54,368 bases of DNA from Syntrophus sp. PtaU1.Bin005 (GTDB lineage: Bacteria > Desulfobacterota > Syntrophia > Syntrophales > Syntrophaceae): NCBI GenBank assembly GCA_002067745.1, contig MVRU01000010.1, positions 1 to 54,368 of the forward strand, given 5' to 3'. The notes below the pieces were generated by a model. The model was given only the letters and a program-made list of their open reading frames with translations, was not told the origin of the DNA and made no database searches. Positions 32,241-52,063 of this stretch are shown here, in pieces. The translations under genes were made by a program, and so were the position numbers. Position 1 is the first letter of the stretch, and each line of letters starts with the position of its first letter.

Positions 32241-32831
32241 TCAATGGGGCATTTCCGCGATCATCTCCCTGGCGAGGGCTCTGGCCACATCCGGCAGCTG
32301 GGGCTTGATGAGCAGGTATTTTTGAGCCCTTGAATGACCGGCCTTCCAAAGAACCCTGCCTTCGGCGGCAGAAATGAGTTTCATGGAAAGACCGATCTTT
32401 CCCACCTTGTCTGTCGCTTCCGTCGTGTAGTTCCAGTAGTCGAGAGAAACAACCAGAAAGGCGTCAACGCGGCATATTTCCCCGATTCTCCTGCTCAGAT
32501 CGGGGTCGGAAAAATTGACGGCTTTGAGCTTCGCAGTATAATCGGCCGTCACTTTCCGCAGCTCTTCATTTTCCTGGAGCTGGCGCTGGATATCATTCCC
32601 GGAGACGATATCGGTAAACCACTTTTTTTCACTCACGACTCCGGCGATGATCTGATCGACAGTCCCCCTGGCCTCTTCATAGGGTCCCACATCGACGGGC
32701 AGGATCCCTATCCGCTCCGGATGAAAATTGCCGGCTTCCGGGTCCACCTCGGAATAGCGCAATCCCCCGCAGCCGGCAAGAGCCAGGATCAGTAATATGG
32801 CAAGAATGACATGCCGGAATCTTCTGTGCAC
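32241..32831 (-). CDS. Lipoprotein resembling the DUF799/GNA1162 group
   Basis: A 196-residue predicted lipoprotein. The signal sequence ends in a lipobox L-A-G-C-G (Cys about residue 21). The mature part (I-G-I-L-P-V-D, V-D-A-F-L-V-V-S-L-D-Y-W, W-K-A-G-H) recalls the small lipoproteins of the GNA1162/DUF799 type, but the match is only suggestive. It uses a GTG start with an AGAGG site. It lies 41 bases after the ispH-ubiA gene on the same strand; no functional link is obvious. Confidence 0.7.
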   Translation of the reverse strand: MHRRFRHVILAILLILALAGCGGLRYSEVDPEAGNFHPERIGILPVDVGPYEEARGTVDQIIAGVVSEKKWFTDIVSGNDIQRQLQENEELRKVTADYTAKLKAVNFSDPDLSRRIGEICRVDAFLVVSLDYWNYTTEATDKVGKIGLSMKLISAAEGRVLWKAGHSRAQKYLLIKPQLPDVARALAREMIAEMPH

Positions 32832-32872: not shown

Positions 32873-34606
32873 TCAGGACCGTGCGGCAACCCAAAGAATA
32901 GAGCACAACCCTGCGATAACATAGCTGGTTTCCAGAAGCCCCTCAAGGACTATTCCTGAAAGCGAGGCCCTTCTATCACAAAGTCGGAAACAAATCCATA
33001 TATAAAATAAATTTATCAGCAGGACCAGTGAGAGCGGGGAGGTCCAGCCGACGAGAGCGCTGGAAACCAGCATGACCGCTAACAGCAGGCAGATAGCCGC
33101 CAGGAGGGTCTGCGTTTTCTGCTTGCCGACCACAACGGGGATCGTCTCCCTGCCGATGAGCCGGTCGCTCTGGATATCCAGGATATCGGAAAGGGACGAG
33201 CGGATAAAAACCACACCAAAGGTAAAAAGAAAGGCGATGAGGAGTTCGGGGGAGAAGAAGGGCTTCCGTTCCACAACAGGCATGATGGCGACGACGGTTG
33301 CCCAGGCCAGGGCCATGGAGATATTTTTTGAGCCGGGGAGATCCTTCAAGCTTCGATAGTGCCATTTTTTGGGCAACAGGGAAGAATTGTAGAGGATCCC
33401 CAGGGTCGACATGAAAAAGAGAAGCAGAAAGGCATGGATTCCCTGGCTCATGGCGATGCCCAGTCCGGTGAGCATGGATAAGATGGCCCCGGAAAGATAA
33501 AAATACTCGTGCTTCAGGTAGGACTCCTCCCGAAAGGAGCCGATGGTGCAATTCTTCCGGTTTACAAACCGGTTGAAGGTGTGCATGGCATGAACATAAA
33601 GGGCGGTGATTAAAAGAAACAGGATGTTGACAGGGACGCGCTCGAGGAGCATGGCTGTCAGTGAGAGGCAGGCCGCCCCGAGGGCGGAGTACAGATCGGT
33701 ACGGACCGCCAGGGTCCAGAGCTTGAAGAACAGCTGACCCTTTCGCTTTTTTTCCGACTGCTGTTCCGTGATCCGGTCAACGACACGGGAAAGGATCCAG
33801 TTCGGTGTGGAAGCCCCGGCCGAGAGACCGATGCGATCGAAGCCGACGAGGAGGTCTCCGCTCAGTTCGTCCGCCGTTTCGATGTGAAAAGTCGGCGTGC
33901 CCTGAAGGGCCGCCAGGTCGGCCAGGCGTCGCGTATTGGCGCTGTTTCTGCCGCCGACGATCACCATGGCTTCCGTCTGGGAGGCCAGTTCCTGGACTTC
34001 AGACTGGCGCCGTTCCGTGGAGTCGCAGATCGTATTGTAAACGACGGTTTCCGGAAACTTCTCGCGGACCCGCTGGACGACGGCCTTGAATTCATCAACG
34101 CTCTGGGTGGTCTGGGCAACGACGCACACCTTTTCCAGATCGGGAAGACGGTCGACATCGGAACAGCTGCTGACGACCCTGCCATGGCCGCCGGAGTGGC
34201 CGAGGAGGCCGTTTACCTCGGGATGATCGCCGTCGCCGACGATCAGGATGGCGTAATGCTGAGCCGCGTGCTTGCGGATGATGGCCTGAACGTGGGCAAC
34301 CTTGGGGCAGGTTGCGTCAATGATCCGTAGGCCCTTTTCACGGAGTTTTCGCCGTTCAGCCGGGGAAATTCCATGGGCCCGGATGACGATGGCCGCGTTG
34401 TGTTCCGATGAGGGGATCGCATCAAGATCGTCGACAGGGACAATCCCCCTGGCGCGCAGGAAGTCCACCGTTTGCGGATTGTGAATCAGCGGGCCATAGG
34501 TGTAGATGGTTCTGGGGCCTTTGTGACGGGCGATCTCAAGGACCATTTCAACGGCTCGCCGAACGCCCATGCAAAACCCGGCCGTCTGTGCTATTCGAAC
34601 GCTCAT
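32873..34606 (-). CDS. ispH: IspH fused to a UbiA-like membrane domain
   Basis: A 577-residue fusion. Residues 1-285 are IspH (HMBPP reductase, last step of the MEP isoprenoid pathway) with the three cluster Cys (Cys12 in G-F-C-M-G-V-R-R-A-V, Cys100 in A-T-C-P-K-V, Cys194 in T-I-C-D-S-T), Glu130 and the T-T-Q motif. Residues about 291-577 have around eight membrane segments and resemble UbiA prenyltransferases. The second Asp-rich motif is kept (D-I-L-D-I-Q-S-D-R-L-I-G, 474-485). The first (usually N-D-x-x-D-x-x-x-D) reads N-R-F-V-N-R-K-N-C (345-353), so prenyl transfer is doubtful. The frame is continuous. It follows tlyA by 6 bases. Confidence 0.92.
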   Translation of the reverse strand: MSVRIAQTAGFCMGVRRAVEMVLEIARHKGPRTIYTYGPLIHNPQTVDFLRARGIVPVDDLDAIPSSEHNAAIVIRAHGISPAERRKLREKGLRIIDATCPKVAHVQAIIRKHAAQHYAILIVGDGDHPEVNGLLGHSGGHGRVVSSCSDVDRLPDLEKVCVVAQTTQSVDEFKAVVQRVREKFPETVVYNTICDSTERRQSEVQELASQTEAMVIVGGRNSANTRRLADLAALQGTPTFHIETADELSGDLLVGFDRIGLSAGASTPNWILSRVVDRITEQQSEKKRKGQLFFKLWTLAVRTDLYSALGAACLSLTAMLLERVPVNILFLLITALYVHAMHTFNRFVNRKNCTIGSFREESYLKHEYFYLSGAILSMLTGLGIAMSQGIHAFLLLFFMSTLGILYNSSLLPKKWHYRSLKDLPGSKNISMALAWATVVAIMPVVERKPFFSPELLIAFLFTFGVVFIRSSLSDILDIQSDRLIGRETIPVVVGKQKTQTLLAAICLLLAVMLVSSALVGWTSPLSLVLLINLFYIWICFRLCDRRASLSGIVLEGLLETSYVIAGLCSILWVAARS

Positions 34607-34612
34607 CTCTCG

Positions 34613-35365
34613 TTATTCCACCGGTAAGCGGGCATAGATGAAGAACTCCCTGTTTCCCCTGGCGCCTGGAAGGGGTGAGGCCGCCGTTCCGATGACCTCC
34701 AATCCGGAACCCCCCATAAAGAGGGTCACCTCATCCTGAACGCGCTGATGAAGATCCGGCTCCCGGACAATGCCTCCCTTTCCGACCTGTCCCTTTCCCA
34801 CTTCAAACTGAGGCTTGATCAGAGCGAGAAGATGCCCTCCCCGTTTTAAGAATTTCACCGCGGAAGGAATGACGAGCTTCAGGGAAATGAACGAGGCATC
34901 GATGGTGATCAGATCGACAGGGGCGTCCATGCCGGCGCCGTCATAAAACCGGATGTTGGTTCTTTCGATGCTGGTCACCCTTGGATCCTTCCTCAATTTC
35001 CAGGCCAGCTGTCCATAACCGACGTCAAGGGCATAAACGTGGCGGGCGCCCTTCTGGAGAAGGCAATCGGTGAAGCCCCCCGTGGAGGCCCCGACATCCA
35101 GAGCTACCAGATCATGGACATCCATGGAAAAGGCTTCAAGCGCCCCTTGAAGCTTCTGCCCCCCGCGGCTGACGTAGGGGGATTCCTTGCCCCTGATCCG
35201 GACAAGGGCCTGGGGGGAAACGAGCATACCGGCCTTGAGAGCGGCTTGGTCATCCACCAGAACGGCGCCGGCAAGGATCAAGGCCCTGGCACGTTCCCGG
35301 CTTACCGAAAGGCCCTGCTTGACGAGGAGCTGATCCAGACGGATTTTTTCTGATTTCGTTTTCAT
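34613..35365 (-). CDS. tlyA: TlyA family rRNA methyltransferase
   Basis: TlyA-family protein of 250 residues: an N-terminal S4 RNA-binding domain (R-L-D-Q-L-L-V-K-Q-G-L-S-V-S-R-E-R-A) and a C-terminal Rossmann-type methyltransferase (A-L-D-V-G-A-S-T-G-G-F-T-D and Y-A-L-D-V-G-Y-G-Q-L). Known members methylate ribose 2'-OH of 16S and/or 23S rRNA; some are called haemolysins. It sits between dxs and ispH, a common arrangement in bacteria (ispA-dxs-tlyA). Confidence 0.92.
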   Translation of the reverse strand: MKTKSEKIRLDQLLVKQGLSVSRERARALILAGAVLVDDQAALKAGMLVSPQALVRIRGKESPYVSRGGQKLQGALEAFSMDVHDLVALDVGASTGGFTDCLLQKGARHVYALDVGYGQLAWKLRKDPRVTSIERTNIRFYDGAGMDAPVDLITIDASFISLKLVIPSAVKFLKRGGHLLALIKPQFEVGKGQVGKGGIVREPDLHQRVQDEVTLFMGGSGLEVIGTAASPLPGARGNREFFIYARLPVE

Positions 35366-35401: not shown

Positions 35402-37336
35402 TCAGGCGGGAGGATCAGGTTCCCGCTCTTTTTTTTGATCCATCATGGCCAAGACGGCTGCCACAATGCCCTGTTCATCGATTCCGTAGAGGTCGCGCAG
35501 CTCGGCCTGAGTGGCTTGCTGTGCAAACTCGTCCCGGACTCCCAGCCTTTTGATGCGGAGATCGCGGATGCCGTTTTCTTCGAAGCATTCCAGGACGGCA
35601 CTGCCGAACCCCCCCATGACGGCATTTTCCTCGACGGTCAGGATGTGCTTGAATGAGCGTGAAAGGTCCAAAAGGAGTTGACGGTCCAGAGGCTTGACAA
35701 ACCGGGCATTGACGACCGCGGCGGAGATTCCCTCCTTTGCGAGCTTCTCCGAGGCGGCAAGGGCCGGGTAAACCGTCGAGCCGATGGCGAGGATGGCGAC
35801 GTCCGTCCCGTCGGCAAGGAGCTCCCCTTTGCCGATTTCCAAAAGGGTGGGTTCCGCATCCGGGGAAACGCCGATCCCGCTTCCCCGAGGATAACGGATC
35901 GCGACGGGCCGGCCATAGCCCATTGCCGAAAAGAGCATGCTCTGCAGTTCATTCTCATCCTTGGGCGCCATGACGATCATGTTTGGAATCGGCCGGAGAA
36001 AGGACAGATCGAAGAGTCCATGGTGGGTTGGGCCGTCTTCCCCGACGAATCCGGAGCGGTCCAGGGCAAAGACCACCGGAAGATTCTGCAGGCAGACGTC
36101 GTGGAGAATCTGGTCATAGGCCCGTTGAAGAAAGCTCGAATAGATGGCGACAACGGGTATCATCCCTTCGGTGGCCAAGCCGGCGGCGAAGGTTACACCA
36201 TGCTGTTCGGCAATGCCCACATCGAAAAAGCGCTCCGGAAATTGTCCGGCGAATTCATTCAGCCCGGTGCCTTCGCACATGGCGGCGGTAATGGCGACAA
36301 TTCGGGGATTGTCTCGGGCCAGCCGGACAAGCGTCCGGCCGAAGACCTGCGTATAGGAGGCCGGCGCCTGAGCTCCTCCGGCAGAACTGGGCCCTCCCGT
36401 TTCCGGATAAAAGGGCCCGATGCCATGAAAACGCAGGGGCTCCGCTTCCGCAAACTCGTAGCCTTTCCCCTTCCGGGTGATGACATGGACCAGAACGGGG
36501 CCTTCCATATGGCGGACATTTTCGAGGTTCCGGATCAAATGATCGAGGCGGTGACCGTCCAGAGGACCCACATAGGTAAATCCGAGGTCTTCAAAAAGCG
36601 CTCCGGGCACGATGAGGGCTTTCAGGGACTCCTCCGCTCTCTTGGAAAATTCCAGGACCTGCTCGCCGATGGAGGGGATCGTTTTAAGAAAATTCTTGAT
36701 GTCCTTCCGGATTCTCTTGACCGTCTGGCCGGTCATGACGGAGTTCAGGTAGCAGGACAAGGCCCCCACATTCGGCGAGATGGACATCTCGTTGTCGTTG
36801 AGGATGATGATCAGGTCCTTCTTGCGGTCTCCGGACCAGTTCAGGCCTTCAAAAGCCAGCCCGGCCGTCATGGATCCGTCGCCGATGATGGCCACGACCT
36901 TGAAAGCTTCTTTTTTCAGATCCCGGGCCTCGAGGATGCCGGAAGCGGCGGAAATGGATGTGCTGCTGTGGCCGACGTTGAAGACATCATAGGGGCTCTC
37001 CTCCCGTTTCGGGAAGCCGCTGATGCCGCCCTTCTGACGGAGGGTGAAGAAACGGTCCGCCCGTCCGGTGATCAATTTGTGGGCATAGGCCTGATGACCC
37101 ACATCCCAGATGATCTTGTCCCGCGGGGTATCAAAAACCTTGTGCAAGGCCAGCGTCAGTTCGACGGCCCCTAGGGATGAAGCCAGGTGCCCGCCCGTCC
37201 GGGAAACCGTTCCAATGATGGTGGCTCGAAGATCTTCAGCCAGAGCCGCAAGGGCGTCGTTGTTCATGTTCCGGATGTCCCGGGGATACAAAATCCCGTT
37301 GAGAAGGCGTCCGGAGCTTCGCTTTGAGAGGTCCAT
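35402..37336 (-). CDS. dxs: 1-deoxy-D-xylulose-5-phosphate synthase
   Basis: Thiamine-diphosphate enzyme that makes DXP from pyruvate and glyceraldehyde 3-phosphate, first step of the MEP pathway. The 644 residues are typical. The TPP motif is G-D-G-S-M-T-A-G (to N-D-N-E-M-S-I-S). Other landmarks are W-D-V-G-H-Q-A-Y-A-H-K, F-N-V-G-H-S-S-T-S-I-S, the Glu of the transketolase domain near D-V-G-I-A-E-Q-H, and D-G-P-T-H-H-G. It is in a run with ispA (upstream) and ispH (downstream), so three isoprenoid steps are coexpressed. Confidence 0.97.
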   Translation of the reverse strand: MDLSKRSSGRLLNGILYPRDIRNMNNDALAALAEDLRATIIGTVSRTGGHLASSLGAVELTLALHKVFDTPRDKIIWDVGHQAYAHKLITGRADRFFTLRQKGGISGFPKREESPYDVFNVGHSSTSISAASGILEARDLKKEAFKVVAIIGDGSMTAGLAFEGLNWSGDRKKDLIIILNDNEMSISPNVGALSCYLNSVMTGQTVKRIRKDIKNFLKTIPSIGEQVLEFSKRAEESLKALIVPGALFEDLGFTYVGPLDGHRLDHLIRNLENVRHMEGPVLVHVITRKGKGYEFAEAEPLRFHGIGPFYPETGGPSSAGGAQAPASYTQVFGRTLVRLARDNPRIVAITAAMCEGTGLNEFAGQFPERFFDVGIAEQHGVTFAAGLATEGMIPVVAIYSSFLQRAYDQILHDVCLQNLPVVFALDRSGFVGEDGPTHHGLFDLSFLRPIPNMIVMAPKDENELQSMLFSAMGYGRPVAIRYPRGSGIGVSPDAEPTLLEIGKGELLADGTDVAILAIGSTVYPALAASEKLAKEGISAAVVNARFVKPLDRQLLLDLSRSFKHILTVEENAVMGGFGSAVLECFEENGIRDLRIKRLGVRDEFAQQATQAELRDLYGIDEQGIVAAVLAMMDQKKEREPDPPA

Positions 37337-37390: not shown

Positions 37391-38305
37391 CTAAAACCGC
37401 CGTTCGAGGAAATACCGTGCCAGCAGCCGCAGAGGCATTGCACGGCTGTCAAACAACTCCAGGTCGCCCAGGGCGTCCTCAACGAGGGAACAAGCCTTCT
37501 GGCGGGAATTTTCCAGTCCCAGCAGGGTGGGAAAGGTCATTTTCCCGCGCGCCGCGTCGCTTCCCGTATTTTTGCCCAGCAGATGGCGGTCTCCTTCCAC
37601 ATTGAGAATATCATCGGCAATCTGGAAAACCAACCCGATTTTGTGGCCGTAATCGGTGAGGGCTGCAAGGTGTGATTCGGATGCGCAGGAGAGGATGGCG
37701 CCGGCCCTCAATGAGACGACAATCATCGCGCCGGTCTTCCTGGAGTGAATCTGATTCAGAACATCCAGATTCCCCGGTTTCCCCTCCGCCTTCACATCGT
37801 CGACCTGTCCGCCCACCATCCCGAAAGCCCCCGCGGCCGTGGCGATTTCGGAAATGACCTTCAGGAGCGTTTCCGGTGCGATTTCAGGCTGCAGATCCCC
37901 GCGGGCCATGAGAGCAAATGCCTCCGTGAGCAGCGCATCACCGGCAAGAATAGCCAGGGCCTCACCGAATACCTTATGGCTGGTGGGATTCCCCCTGCGG
38001 TAATCGTCATTGTCCATTGCCGGAAGGTCGTCGTGGATGAGGGAATAGGTATGGATGTATTCCAGGGCGCAGGCCACCGGCAGGATGCTTTCGGAAACAT
38101 CGGATAGGCCCGTCGCCTCCGCCGCCGCAAGGCAGAGAATGGGGCGGAGCCGCTTTCCTCCGGCAAAGAGGCTGTAGCGCATCGCCTTGAAAAGGTCCGC
38201 CGGCAGGCTGTCATCGCCGGGCAGGAAGCGGTCGATGGCCTCGTCGATTCGCTGCTTTCGATCCTTGAGGTAGGCGTTGAGATCCAAAAGAGATTCAGGA
38301 TTCAT
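37391..38305 (-). CDS. ispA: Polyprenyl (farnesyl/geranylgeranyl) diphosphate synthase
   Basis: Class I trans-prenyltransferase of 304 residues. The first Asp-rich motif is D-D-L-P-A-M-D and the second D-D-I-L-N-V-E-G-D; G-K-R-L-R-P and the G-Q-V-D-D region also fit. The residues before the first motif (Y-I-H-T-Y-S-L-I-H) are those of short-chain (C15/C20) synthases, but the chain length cannot be fixed from sequence alone. The ATG at 38305 has a GGAGG site and overlaps the end of xseB by 11 bases. Confidence 0.94.
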   Translation of the reverse strand: MNPESLLDLNAYLKDRKQRIDEAIDRFLPGDDSLPADLFKAMRYSLFAGGKRLRPILCLAAAEATGLSDVSESILPVACALEYIHTYSLIHDDLPAMDNDDYRRGNPTSHKVFGEALAILAGDALLTEAFALMARGDLQPEIAPETLLKVISEIATAAGAFGMVGGQVDDVKAEGKPGNLDVLNQIHSRKTGAMIVVSLRAGAILSCASESHLAALTDYGHKIGLVFQIADDILNVEGDRHLLGKNTGSDAARGKMTFPTLLGLENSRQKACSLVEDALGDLELFDSRAMPLRLLARYFLERRF

Positions 38306-38537
38306 CTTTTCCTCCATGTTCCGGAAAAGGCTGGACCGTCAGCTGCTGGCTTTCCCGGACAAGCAGCTCAACCCGCCGCTCCGCCTCGTCCAGGCGGTTT
38401 GCGCACAGCCGGGAAAGGCGCACCCCCTCCTCAAAGGCCTTCAGGGATTCTTCCAGGGTCATTTCACCCGCTTCCATTTTACGCACGAGGGCTTCCAGTT
38501 TGGCCATGGCCTCTTCAAATTTTTCCTTTGCCATCAC
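38295..38537 (-). CDS. xseB: Exodeoxyribonuclease VII small subunit
   Basis: An 80-residue all-helical protein that binds XseA to form the single-strand-specific exonuclease VII. The E-E-A-M-A-K-L-E-A-L-V-R-K-M-E-A-G and L-E-E-S-L-K-A-F-E-E-G-V-R-L pattern is diagnostic. It lies 15 bases after xseA and overlaps ispA, the conserved xseA-xseB-ispA order. Confidence 0.94.
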   Translation of the reverse strand: MMAKEKFEEAMAKLEALVRKMEAGEMTLEESLKAFEEGVRLSRLCANRLDEAERRVELLVRESQQLTVQPFPEHGGKDES

Positions 38538-51224: not shown

Positions 51225-51355
51225 AGGAGACAGATTTCACGCAGGCCATAACGGCCGGGTATGTCCCCGCGGCGAAATGACGTTAGAATACCGCGCCATG
51301 GGTATGGCGGAGGCGCAGCGACTTCAAGGAGGTTACCTGGATCATGGAGACAACG

Positions 51356-52063
51356 ATGGATCGAAAGGCTTTGTACGACATCAGCTATGGGCTTTATGTC
51401 ATTACCTCGATTGCGGACGGCAGAATGAACGGGCAGATTGCCAATACGGTTTTCCAGGTCAGCAGTACGCCGGCAAAAATTGCCGTGAGCATCAACAAGG
51501 AAAATCTCACCCATGAATACATCCTGAAAAGCGGTGTTCTGGCGGTGTCGACCCTGGGGCAGGAAACCCCGCTTCCCTTCATCGGGCTCTTCGGCTTTAA
51601 ATCAGGGCGCGAGATCGACAAGCTGTCCCAGTGCGCCTACGTTCAGGGTGCAACGGGATGCCCCTGTGTCACCGACCATGCACTGTCGTATATGGAAGGA
51701 AAGGTGGTTGCTTCCGCCGACGGCGGGACGCATACGGTCTTCATCGTGGAGCTTGCGGCGGCGGCCGTCCTGAAAAAGGGTACGCCGCTGACCTATGCCT
51801 ATTATCAGGAGGTAAAAAACGGAAAAGCCCCCAAAACCGCCCCGACCTATAAGGAAGCGGCGGCAGAAAACGCTTCGAAAACAACAGAAAAGGAGAGTTC
51901 AATGAAAAAGTATGAGTGTGGAATTTGCGGCTACATCTATGACCCGGAAGCGGGTGATCCGGAGAACAATATCCCCGCCGGGACGCCCTTTGACAAGCTT
52001 CCCGACGAGTGGACCTGTCCGATCTGCGGAGCCGGCAAGGAAGACTTCAGCGAAGTAGCCTGA
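51356..52063 (+). CDS. Flavoredoxin-rubredoxin fusion (high-molecular-weight rubredoxin type)
   Basis: A 235-residue fusion. Residues 1-155 are an FMN-binding flavin reductase-like (flavoredoxin) domain ([18 protein letters not shown]). An Ala/Lys/Thr-rich linker follows, then a rubredoxin (183-235) with C-G-I-C-G and C-P-I-C-G iron ligands. Similar fusions (Hrb in Moorella) reduce A-type flavoproteins that detoxify nitric oxide or oxygen. The start at 51356 has GGAG 6 bases upstream; 51344 is an in-frame alternative. An internal start with a strong ribosome site (see 51902) should also yield free rubredoxin. Confidence 0.92.
51902..52063 (+). CDS. Possible separately translated rubredoxin from internal start
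   Basis: The ATG at 51902, in frame within the fusion gene, is preceded at 7 bases by AAAGGAGAG, a stronger ribosome site than that of the main start. It would give a 53-residue rubredoxin starting [10 protein letters not shown], the exact size and N-terminus of free-standing rubredoxins. The two Cys pairs are at residues 6/9 and 39/42. Independent translation is an inference from the site; an alternative is that the site is left over from an ancestral separate gene. Confidence 0.5.

Follow-up and report, generated by a model that had tools for sequence, protein, structure and literature searches.

A gene in the genome of Syntrophus sp. PtaU1.Bin005 joins IspH, the last enzyme of the MEP pathway, to a UbiA-type membrane domain in which the first Asp motif contains no Asp. 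This locus raises the question whether, in anaerobes, the last MEP enzyme is tethered to the membrane isoprenoid pool and is perhaps controlled by it. Organisms in which isoprenoids come from the MEP pathway alone cannot do without IspH, which is also a drug target, so that a membrane form of the enzyme is of practical interest. When fusions of this kind were reported in 2015, the UbiA half was left unexplained and two intact Asp motifs were assumed (Rao et al., 2015; PMC4746011). The window analyzed here is the whole stretch of 54,368 nucleotides of contig MVRU01000010.1, and coordinates refer to it.

An uninterrupted frame for IspH and a membrane domain

The IspH-UbiA fusion gene is located on the minus strand at 32873..34606, with an ATG at 34606, a stop codon ending at 32873 and no internal stop over 577 codons. 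The first-pass annotation, which named no strand, had described a single uninterrupted frame in which a complete IspH is joined to a membrane domain. Both points were borne out by the translation and by domain searches, in which LYTB matched residues 3-279 (E 1.4e-91; 307 bits versus a curated cut-off of 24.5) and PF01040 (UbiA) matched residues 373-542 (E 2.9e-14; 53.4 bits versus a curated cut-off of 34.2).

The IspH domain (aa 1-282; 33761..34606, minus strand) also scored 284 bits with TIGR00216 (IspH; cut-off 188), and comparison of the fusion model with E. coli IspH gave a Z of 34. Residues C12, C100 and C194, which we take to be the cluster cysteines after E. coli IspH, and H42, H78, H128, E130, T167, S222, N224 and S266, presumably the active-site residues by the same comparison, were invariant in 44 diverse fused proteins. 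As read from its sequence, the IspH half is complete, with the cluster cysteines and active-site residues all present. The fused protein was the only IspH match in the PtaU1.Bin005 genome, and six genomes or MAGs from other fused lineages each contained one IspH, which was fused as well.

Structure prediction had been proposed as a check, and AlphaFold2, run on the full-length protein (pLDDT 86.5), gave a UbiA fold for the membrane half (aa 290-577; 32876..33739, minus strand). The UbiA-type membrane domain described earlier could thus be confirmed, with nine membrane-length helices in the model instead of about eight. Fold comparison gave Z values of 19.6 to ApUbiA (4od4) and 18.3 to AfUbiA (4tq4). 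No NCBIfam model matched the UbiA half above its cut-off, the nearest being PRK13591 with 61 bits versus 238. By descent and predicted fold, the membrane half is a member of the UbiA superfamily, with relatives among prenyltransferases that bind metal through the motifs NRxxDxxxD and DxxDxxxD.

When the fusion was sought in other genomes, 92 of 100 related genomes proved to contain the UbiA-like domain, with few exceptions in one frame of ∼580 aa together with IspH, and it was spread over many families of the phylum. A profile of the domain was searched against 158 genomes of the phylum, and apart from fragments at contig edges and one or two relatives that were not fused, all strong matches lay in IspH-fused frames. 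In some relatives (G121:C37, G204:C31, G171:C18 and G203:C10) the part of the fused gene that was matched contained stop codons, for which decay, splitting or an assembly error is possible.

Both halves of the fusion are under purifying selection, with dN of 0.10-0.18 versus dS of 0.7-1.4 and a similar dN/dS of ∼0.10-0.17 for each half (three congener comparisons, Nei-Gojobori; dS partly near saturation). The idea that an assembly or sequencing error had joined two genes found no supporting evidence and was rejected as having practically no chance of being correct, since one frame recurs in three sampled congeners and in nearly every matching relative, across independent assemblies that include a single-contig genome of 3.18 Mb.

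The fusion itself is real, but it can not be regarded as new, as Rao et al. (2015; PMC4746011) had described 47 IspH-UbiA fusions, which they called Rosetta-stone proteins and of which a full-length active protein could not be expressed. All of these were found in sulfate reducers, whereas the present survey extends the fusion to Syntrophales and to MAGs with the labels Chitinispirillia, Zixibacteria, BRC1 and Planctomycetota. No work on the UbiA half after 2015 was found in the literature searched. It is concluded that the fusion is real, well conserved and previously described, and that the PtaU1.Bin005 protein is a lineage-specific variant of it. What is added here is a corrected reading of the first motif and its distribution, a set of unfused relatives with an intact motif, and the lineages with a pseudo-UbiA domain.

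The first Asp motif among fused proteins

The altered first Asp motif, N345-R-F-V-N349-R-K-N-C353, was found by direct translation at 33548..33574 (minus strand; aa 345-353), exactly where it had been annotated. Compared with the canonical N-x-x-x-D-x-x-x-D, the fusion therefore reads N345-x-x-x-N349-x-x-x-C353. Neither the translation nor the alignments showed an intact first motif elsewhere in the UbiA domain, and the altered reading stands. Plain alignment to MenA-type paralogues left the register ambiguous by a few residues, and it was settled with closer unfused relatives that read NRLTDxxEDAxNCP. The closest of these (L179, L199, L194 and L195) contain CQWNRLTDxxEDAxNCP or nearly so, which identifies N345, R346, N349 and C353 as motif positions 1, 2, 5 and 9.

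MqnP-type paralogues within the same order read NR[FY]ADAxxD, with an Arg at position 2, and the active human UBIAD1 has the first motif NTYYDFSKG, without Asp at positions 2 and 9 (PMC9314443). Hence, two of the three positions at which a loss of Asp had been noted are not diagnostic, and on sequence comparison the replacement of Asp by Asn at position 5, the equivalent of AfUbiA D72, is the sole telling change. In AfUbiA, D72A and N68A lose GPP binding and motif-2 mutants merely weaken it, and the equivalents of D72A and N68A in EcMenA are inactive (PMC4106721).

Position 1 was Asn (N345) in 91 of 99 fused proteins. Asp was present at position 5 in 43 of them, namely 10 of 42 Syntrophales and 33 of 57 others, and 28 of the 42 Syntrophales had Asn at this position. 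Position 9 was Asp in 11/99, and two of the 99 proteins had Asp at both positions 5 and 9. On the IspH-domain tree, at least 12 changes in the state of position 5 were counted among 71 fused proteins. The substitutes were partly lineage-coherent, with Asn in Syntrophales, Gly in a Desulfobacterales group and Ser in Chitinispirillia. The ten Syntrophales with Asp at position 5 were scattered among the Asn carriers, so that N349 may be compatible with enzyme activity. For the UbiA domain, two DXXXD repeats were given by Rao et al. (2015; PMC4746011), a reading that may rest on the DRFND/DRYND string observed just downstream of the real first motif in the Desulfobacterales members L055 and L058.

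The motif had been called degraded, which suggests decay, but the Syntrophales have a changed version of this region that is itself conserved, NRxx[N/D]R...SFREExY. N345 and R346 were present in all 42 Syntrophales and R350 in 39, followed by conserved S357-F358-R359-E360 and Y363; N352 and C353 did not rank with the best-conserved residues. A Syntrophales-specific conserved loop, GSFREESYLKH (aa 356-366; 33509..33541, minus strand), was identified in alignments and replaces the NDPxRAxFYxRH-type loop of other fused lineages. The change in Syntrophales reads as a rewriting of the motif and not as simple decay.

The second Asp motif, D474-I-L-D477-I-Q-S-D481 (aa 474-481; 33164..33187, minus strand), is intact, as previously annotated, and its last residue D481 was Asp in 97 of 99 fused proteins. 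Y406 (33389..33391, minus strand), placed by HMM alignment to 4tq3 as the equivalent of AfUbiA Y139, was conserved in 99/99, and it matches the TM4 Tyr that is near-universal in UbiA prenyltransferases; Y139 is the proposed carbocation-stabilising Tyr of AfUbiA (PMC4106721). In the basic L4-5 loop LKDLPGSKN (aa 420-428; 33323..33349, minus strand), which was identified from alignments and conservation counts, K427 was Lys in 87 and Arg in 12 of the 99 proteins. Within Syntrophales, conservation in the domain was especially high at H342, N345, Y406, D474, Q479, D481, K427, E487 and T488.

Two groups, f49 (seven genomes; L163, L169, L182-L186) and f52 (L164, L187-L189), contain an IspH with a C-terminal membrane domain that lacks the first motif, the Tyr and the LKDxPGSK loop, and retains the Asp at the 481 position. 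In f49, the missing residues were specifically the equivalents of N345, D349 and Y406, together with the loop. Pfam did not recognize the f49 domain as UbiA, and the f52 domain scored below the cut-off. In hhalign profile comparisons, f52 matched with an E of 6e-9 and f49 weakly, with an E of 2.5e-4 and a probability of 43%. The full alignment of f49 with site-bearing fused proteins was clear, and in a quick tree the f49 IspH domains were nested beside those of L149 and L153, two proteins that have retained N-x-x-x-D (SH-aLRT 97 and 95). The f49 model reached a pLDDT of 93.5 and a Z of 17.4 to UBIAD1, compared with at most 8.3 for unrelated folds; the alignment behind it took in site-bearing relatives, which helped the fold. 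According to this model, the f49 membrane domain is a UbiA fold that was retained while almost all of the active site was lost. A non-catalytic role of the fused domain is strongly suggested for the f49 and f52 lineages. Over the whole family, the survey indicates that the first metal site was lost by degrees, with two lineages in which a pseudo-UbiA domain is still fused to IspH.

In the IspH tree, Desulfobacterales-type IspH proteins without a UbiA domain (L073-L076 and L080) were nested among fused proteins. In these the UbiA domain was probably lost, which suggests that some backgrounds can do without the tether.

Possible roles of the membrane domain

The explanation that we favour, and to which we give about an even chance, is that of a membrane-anchored sole IspH with a UbiA pocket that binds a prenyl diphosphate, a remodelled first metal site, and channelling or sensing in place of ordinary transfer. 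Between the latter two, channelling or sensing is considered likelier than ordinary prenyl transfer, and the non-catalytic membrane function, such as channelling, that had been put forward in the first-pass annotation is a live option. The gene product would be the only IspH of the cell, and IspH would be positioned on the cytoplasmic face above the mouth of the UbiA pocket, because UbiA N-termini are cytoplasmic (PMC4106721). The pocket would still bind an isoprenoid diphosphate via N345, Y406, R346, R350, K421 and K427 and the motif-2 metal site D474/D477/D481, on the grounds that few positions of the domain are better conserved. In Syntrophales, the first metal site would be remodelled by Asn for Asp at 349 in most members, the lack of Asp at 353 and the SFREExY cap, so that these domains probably have little or no prenyltransferase activity of the ordinary two-metal kind. 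The domain would hold IspH at the membrane, and would channel or sense either the products of IspH or downstream prenyl diphosphates. Placement of IspH at the membrane may be the role common to all fused lineages, with a catalytic or ligand-binding role that would be altered or lost lineage by lineage. By analogy with UBIAD1, the fused UbiA fold could be a non-catalytic membrane sensor or channel of prenyl diphosphates for IspH, with independent site losses up to full pseudoenzymes; this is put forward tentatively and we consider it rather doubtful.

An active, divergent prenyltransferase, in which a prenyl group (perhaps DMAPP from the adjoining IspH) is transferred to some acceptor and in which N345, motif 2 and the basic residues stand in for the first Mg2+ site, corresponds to the Rosetta-stone reading of Rao et al. 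and is possible, if unlikely. The conservation of Y406, D481 and N345 would be equally expected of a working transferase. The frequency of Asp at position 5, the retention of motif 2 in most fused proteins, the invariant catalytic Tyr and the strong purifying selection are all consistent with activity, as are the ability of UBIAD1 to work with NTYYDFSKG and the binding of DMAPP by AfUbiA (PMC4106721). However, the PtaU1.Bin005 protein has Asn at position 5, where Ala abolishes GPP binding in AfUbiA and the activity of EcMenA (PMC4106721), and other lineages have Gly or Ser there or have lost nearly the whole site.

The gene neighbourhood, with dxs and ispA as MEP-gene neighbours, also fits an active transferase. 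The four neighbours given here are on the minus strand, and the genes were named by reading the proteins. Immediately upstream of the fusion is a tlyA-like gene (34613..35365), followed by dxs, which encodes the first MEP-pathway enzyme (35402..37336), and a gene for an ispA-type short-chain prenyl diphosphate synthase (37391..38317); a small lipoprotein gene is located downstream (32241..32831). The order xseA-ispA-dxs-tlyA-ispH/ubiA-lipoprotein-tmk-holB is conserved at Syntrophales loci as far as the contigs extend. Beyond Syntrophales, the neighbours looked at were ParA/ParB/YacP, pantoate ligase, phosphorylase and beta-lactamase-like genes, and among these no neighbour shared between lineages was found that would name an acceptor. 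Elsewhere in the window, a 239-aa frame at 51344-52063 (plus strand) contains, by eye, a flavin-reductase-like domain followed by a terminal rubredoxin-type CxxC domain (...WTCPICG).

Two other UbiA-family genes are present in the PtaU1.Bin005 genome and would be available for ordinary prenylation, which argues against a transferase role of the fused domain. The one that was read has an intact NDYFD motif, so that quinone prenylation in this genome probably does not depend on the fused domain. In G020, G023 and G028 the fused domain was the sole UbiA-family match, and these genomes may lack prenylated quinones or may use the fused domain for them. Frames of 558-561 aa with a UbiA-family domain were observed in two Syntrophales genomes, L101 (625-2307, plus strand) and L098 (1441-3114, minus strand); the L101 frame consists of an ABC-transporter permease (TauC/SsuC-like by eye) followed by an MqnP-type prenyltransferase with an intact NRYADAAID.

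It is improbable that the domain is purely an anchor, i.e., a pseudoenzyme that only keeps IspH at the membrane, with polar residues that are structural or that contact IspH. The f49 and f52 groups, which keep the domain without most active-site residues, would fit such a role, as would the lack of Asp at position 9 in nearly all fused proteins; however, in Syntrophales the pocket-mouth residues H342, N345, Y406, D474, Q479, D481 and K427 are conserved beyond the needs of an anchor.

Comparison with known systems

The fusions described by Rao et al. (2015; PMC4746011; PT_UbiA_5) have the same domain order, a nine-helix UbiA-like C-terminus and anaerobic hosts. In contrast to the two DXXXD repeats given for them, the first motif of the PtaU1.Bin005 protein is N-x-x-x-N without Asp.

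AfUbiA and ApUbiA (4tq3 and 4od5) and the MenA, UbiA and MqnP enzymes share the fold, and N345, Y406 and motif 2 correspond to N68, Y139 and D198/D202, respectively. The fusion differs from them by the Asn in place of D72, the lack of Asp at position 9, the long LKDxPGSK[N/D] L4-5 loop and the presence of IspH. The closest unfused sequences found were the Syntrophales UbiA relatives L179, L199, L194 and L195, which share the Y[NS]..P........R.KN...KN loop and the WDxRDxxGD motif with the fusion. These proteins differ in that they are unfused and carry the full NRLTDxxEDAxNCP first motif.

Human UBIAD1 binds and regulates HMG-CoA reductase (PMC8641950, PMC9314443) and, as in the fusion, a UbiA-fold protein is here physically linked to a key enzyme of an isoprenoid pathway. 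Positions 2 and 9 of its first motif are likewise devoid of Asp, and UBIAD1 matched the model of the PtaU1.Bin005 fusion with a Z of 16.2, next to the 17.4 of f49. UBIAD1 differs in that its partner is non-covalent and belongs to a different pathway, in that the Asp at position 5 is kept and in that its catalytic activity is known. UBIAD1 and HMG-CoA reductase may thus serve as a precedent for the regulation of an isoprenoid enzyme by a UbiA-fold protein, as a working analogy for the fusion and not as a claim of membership.
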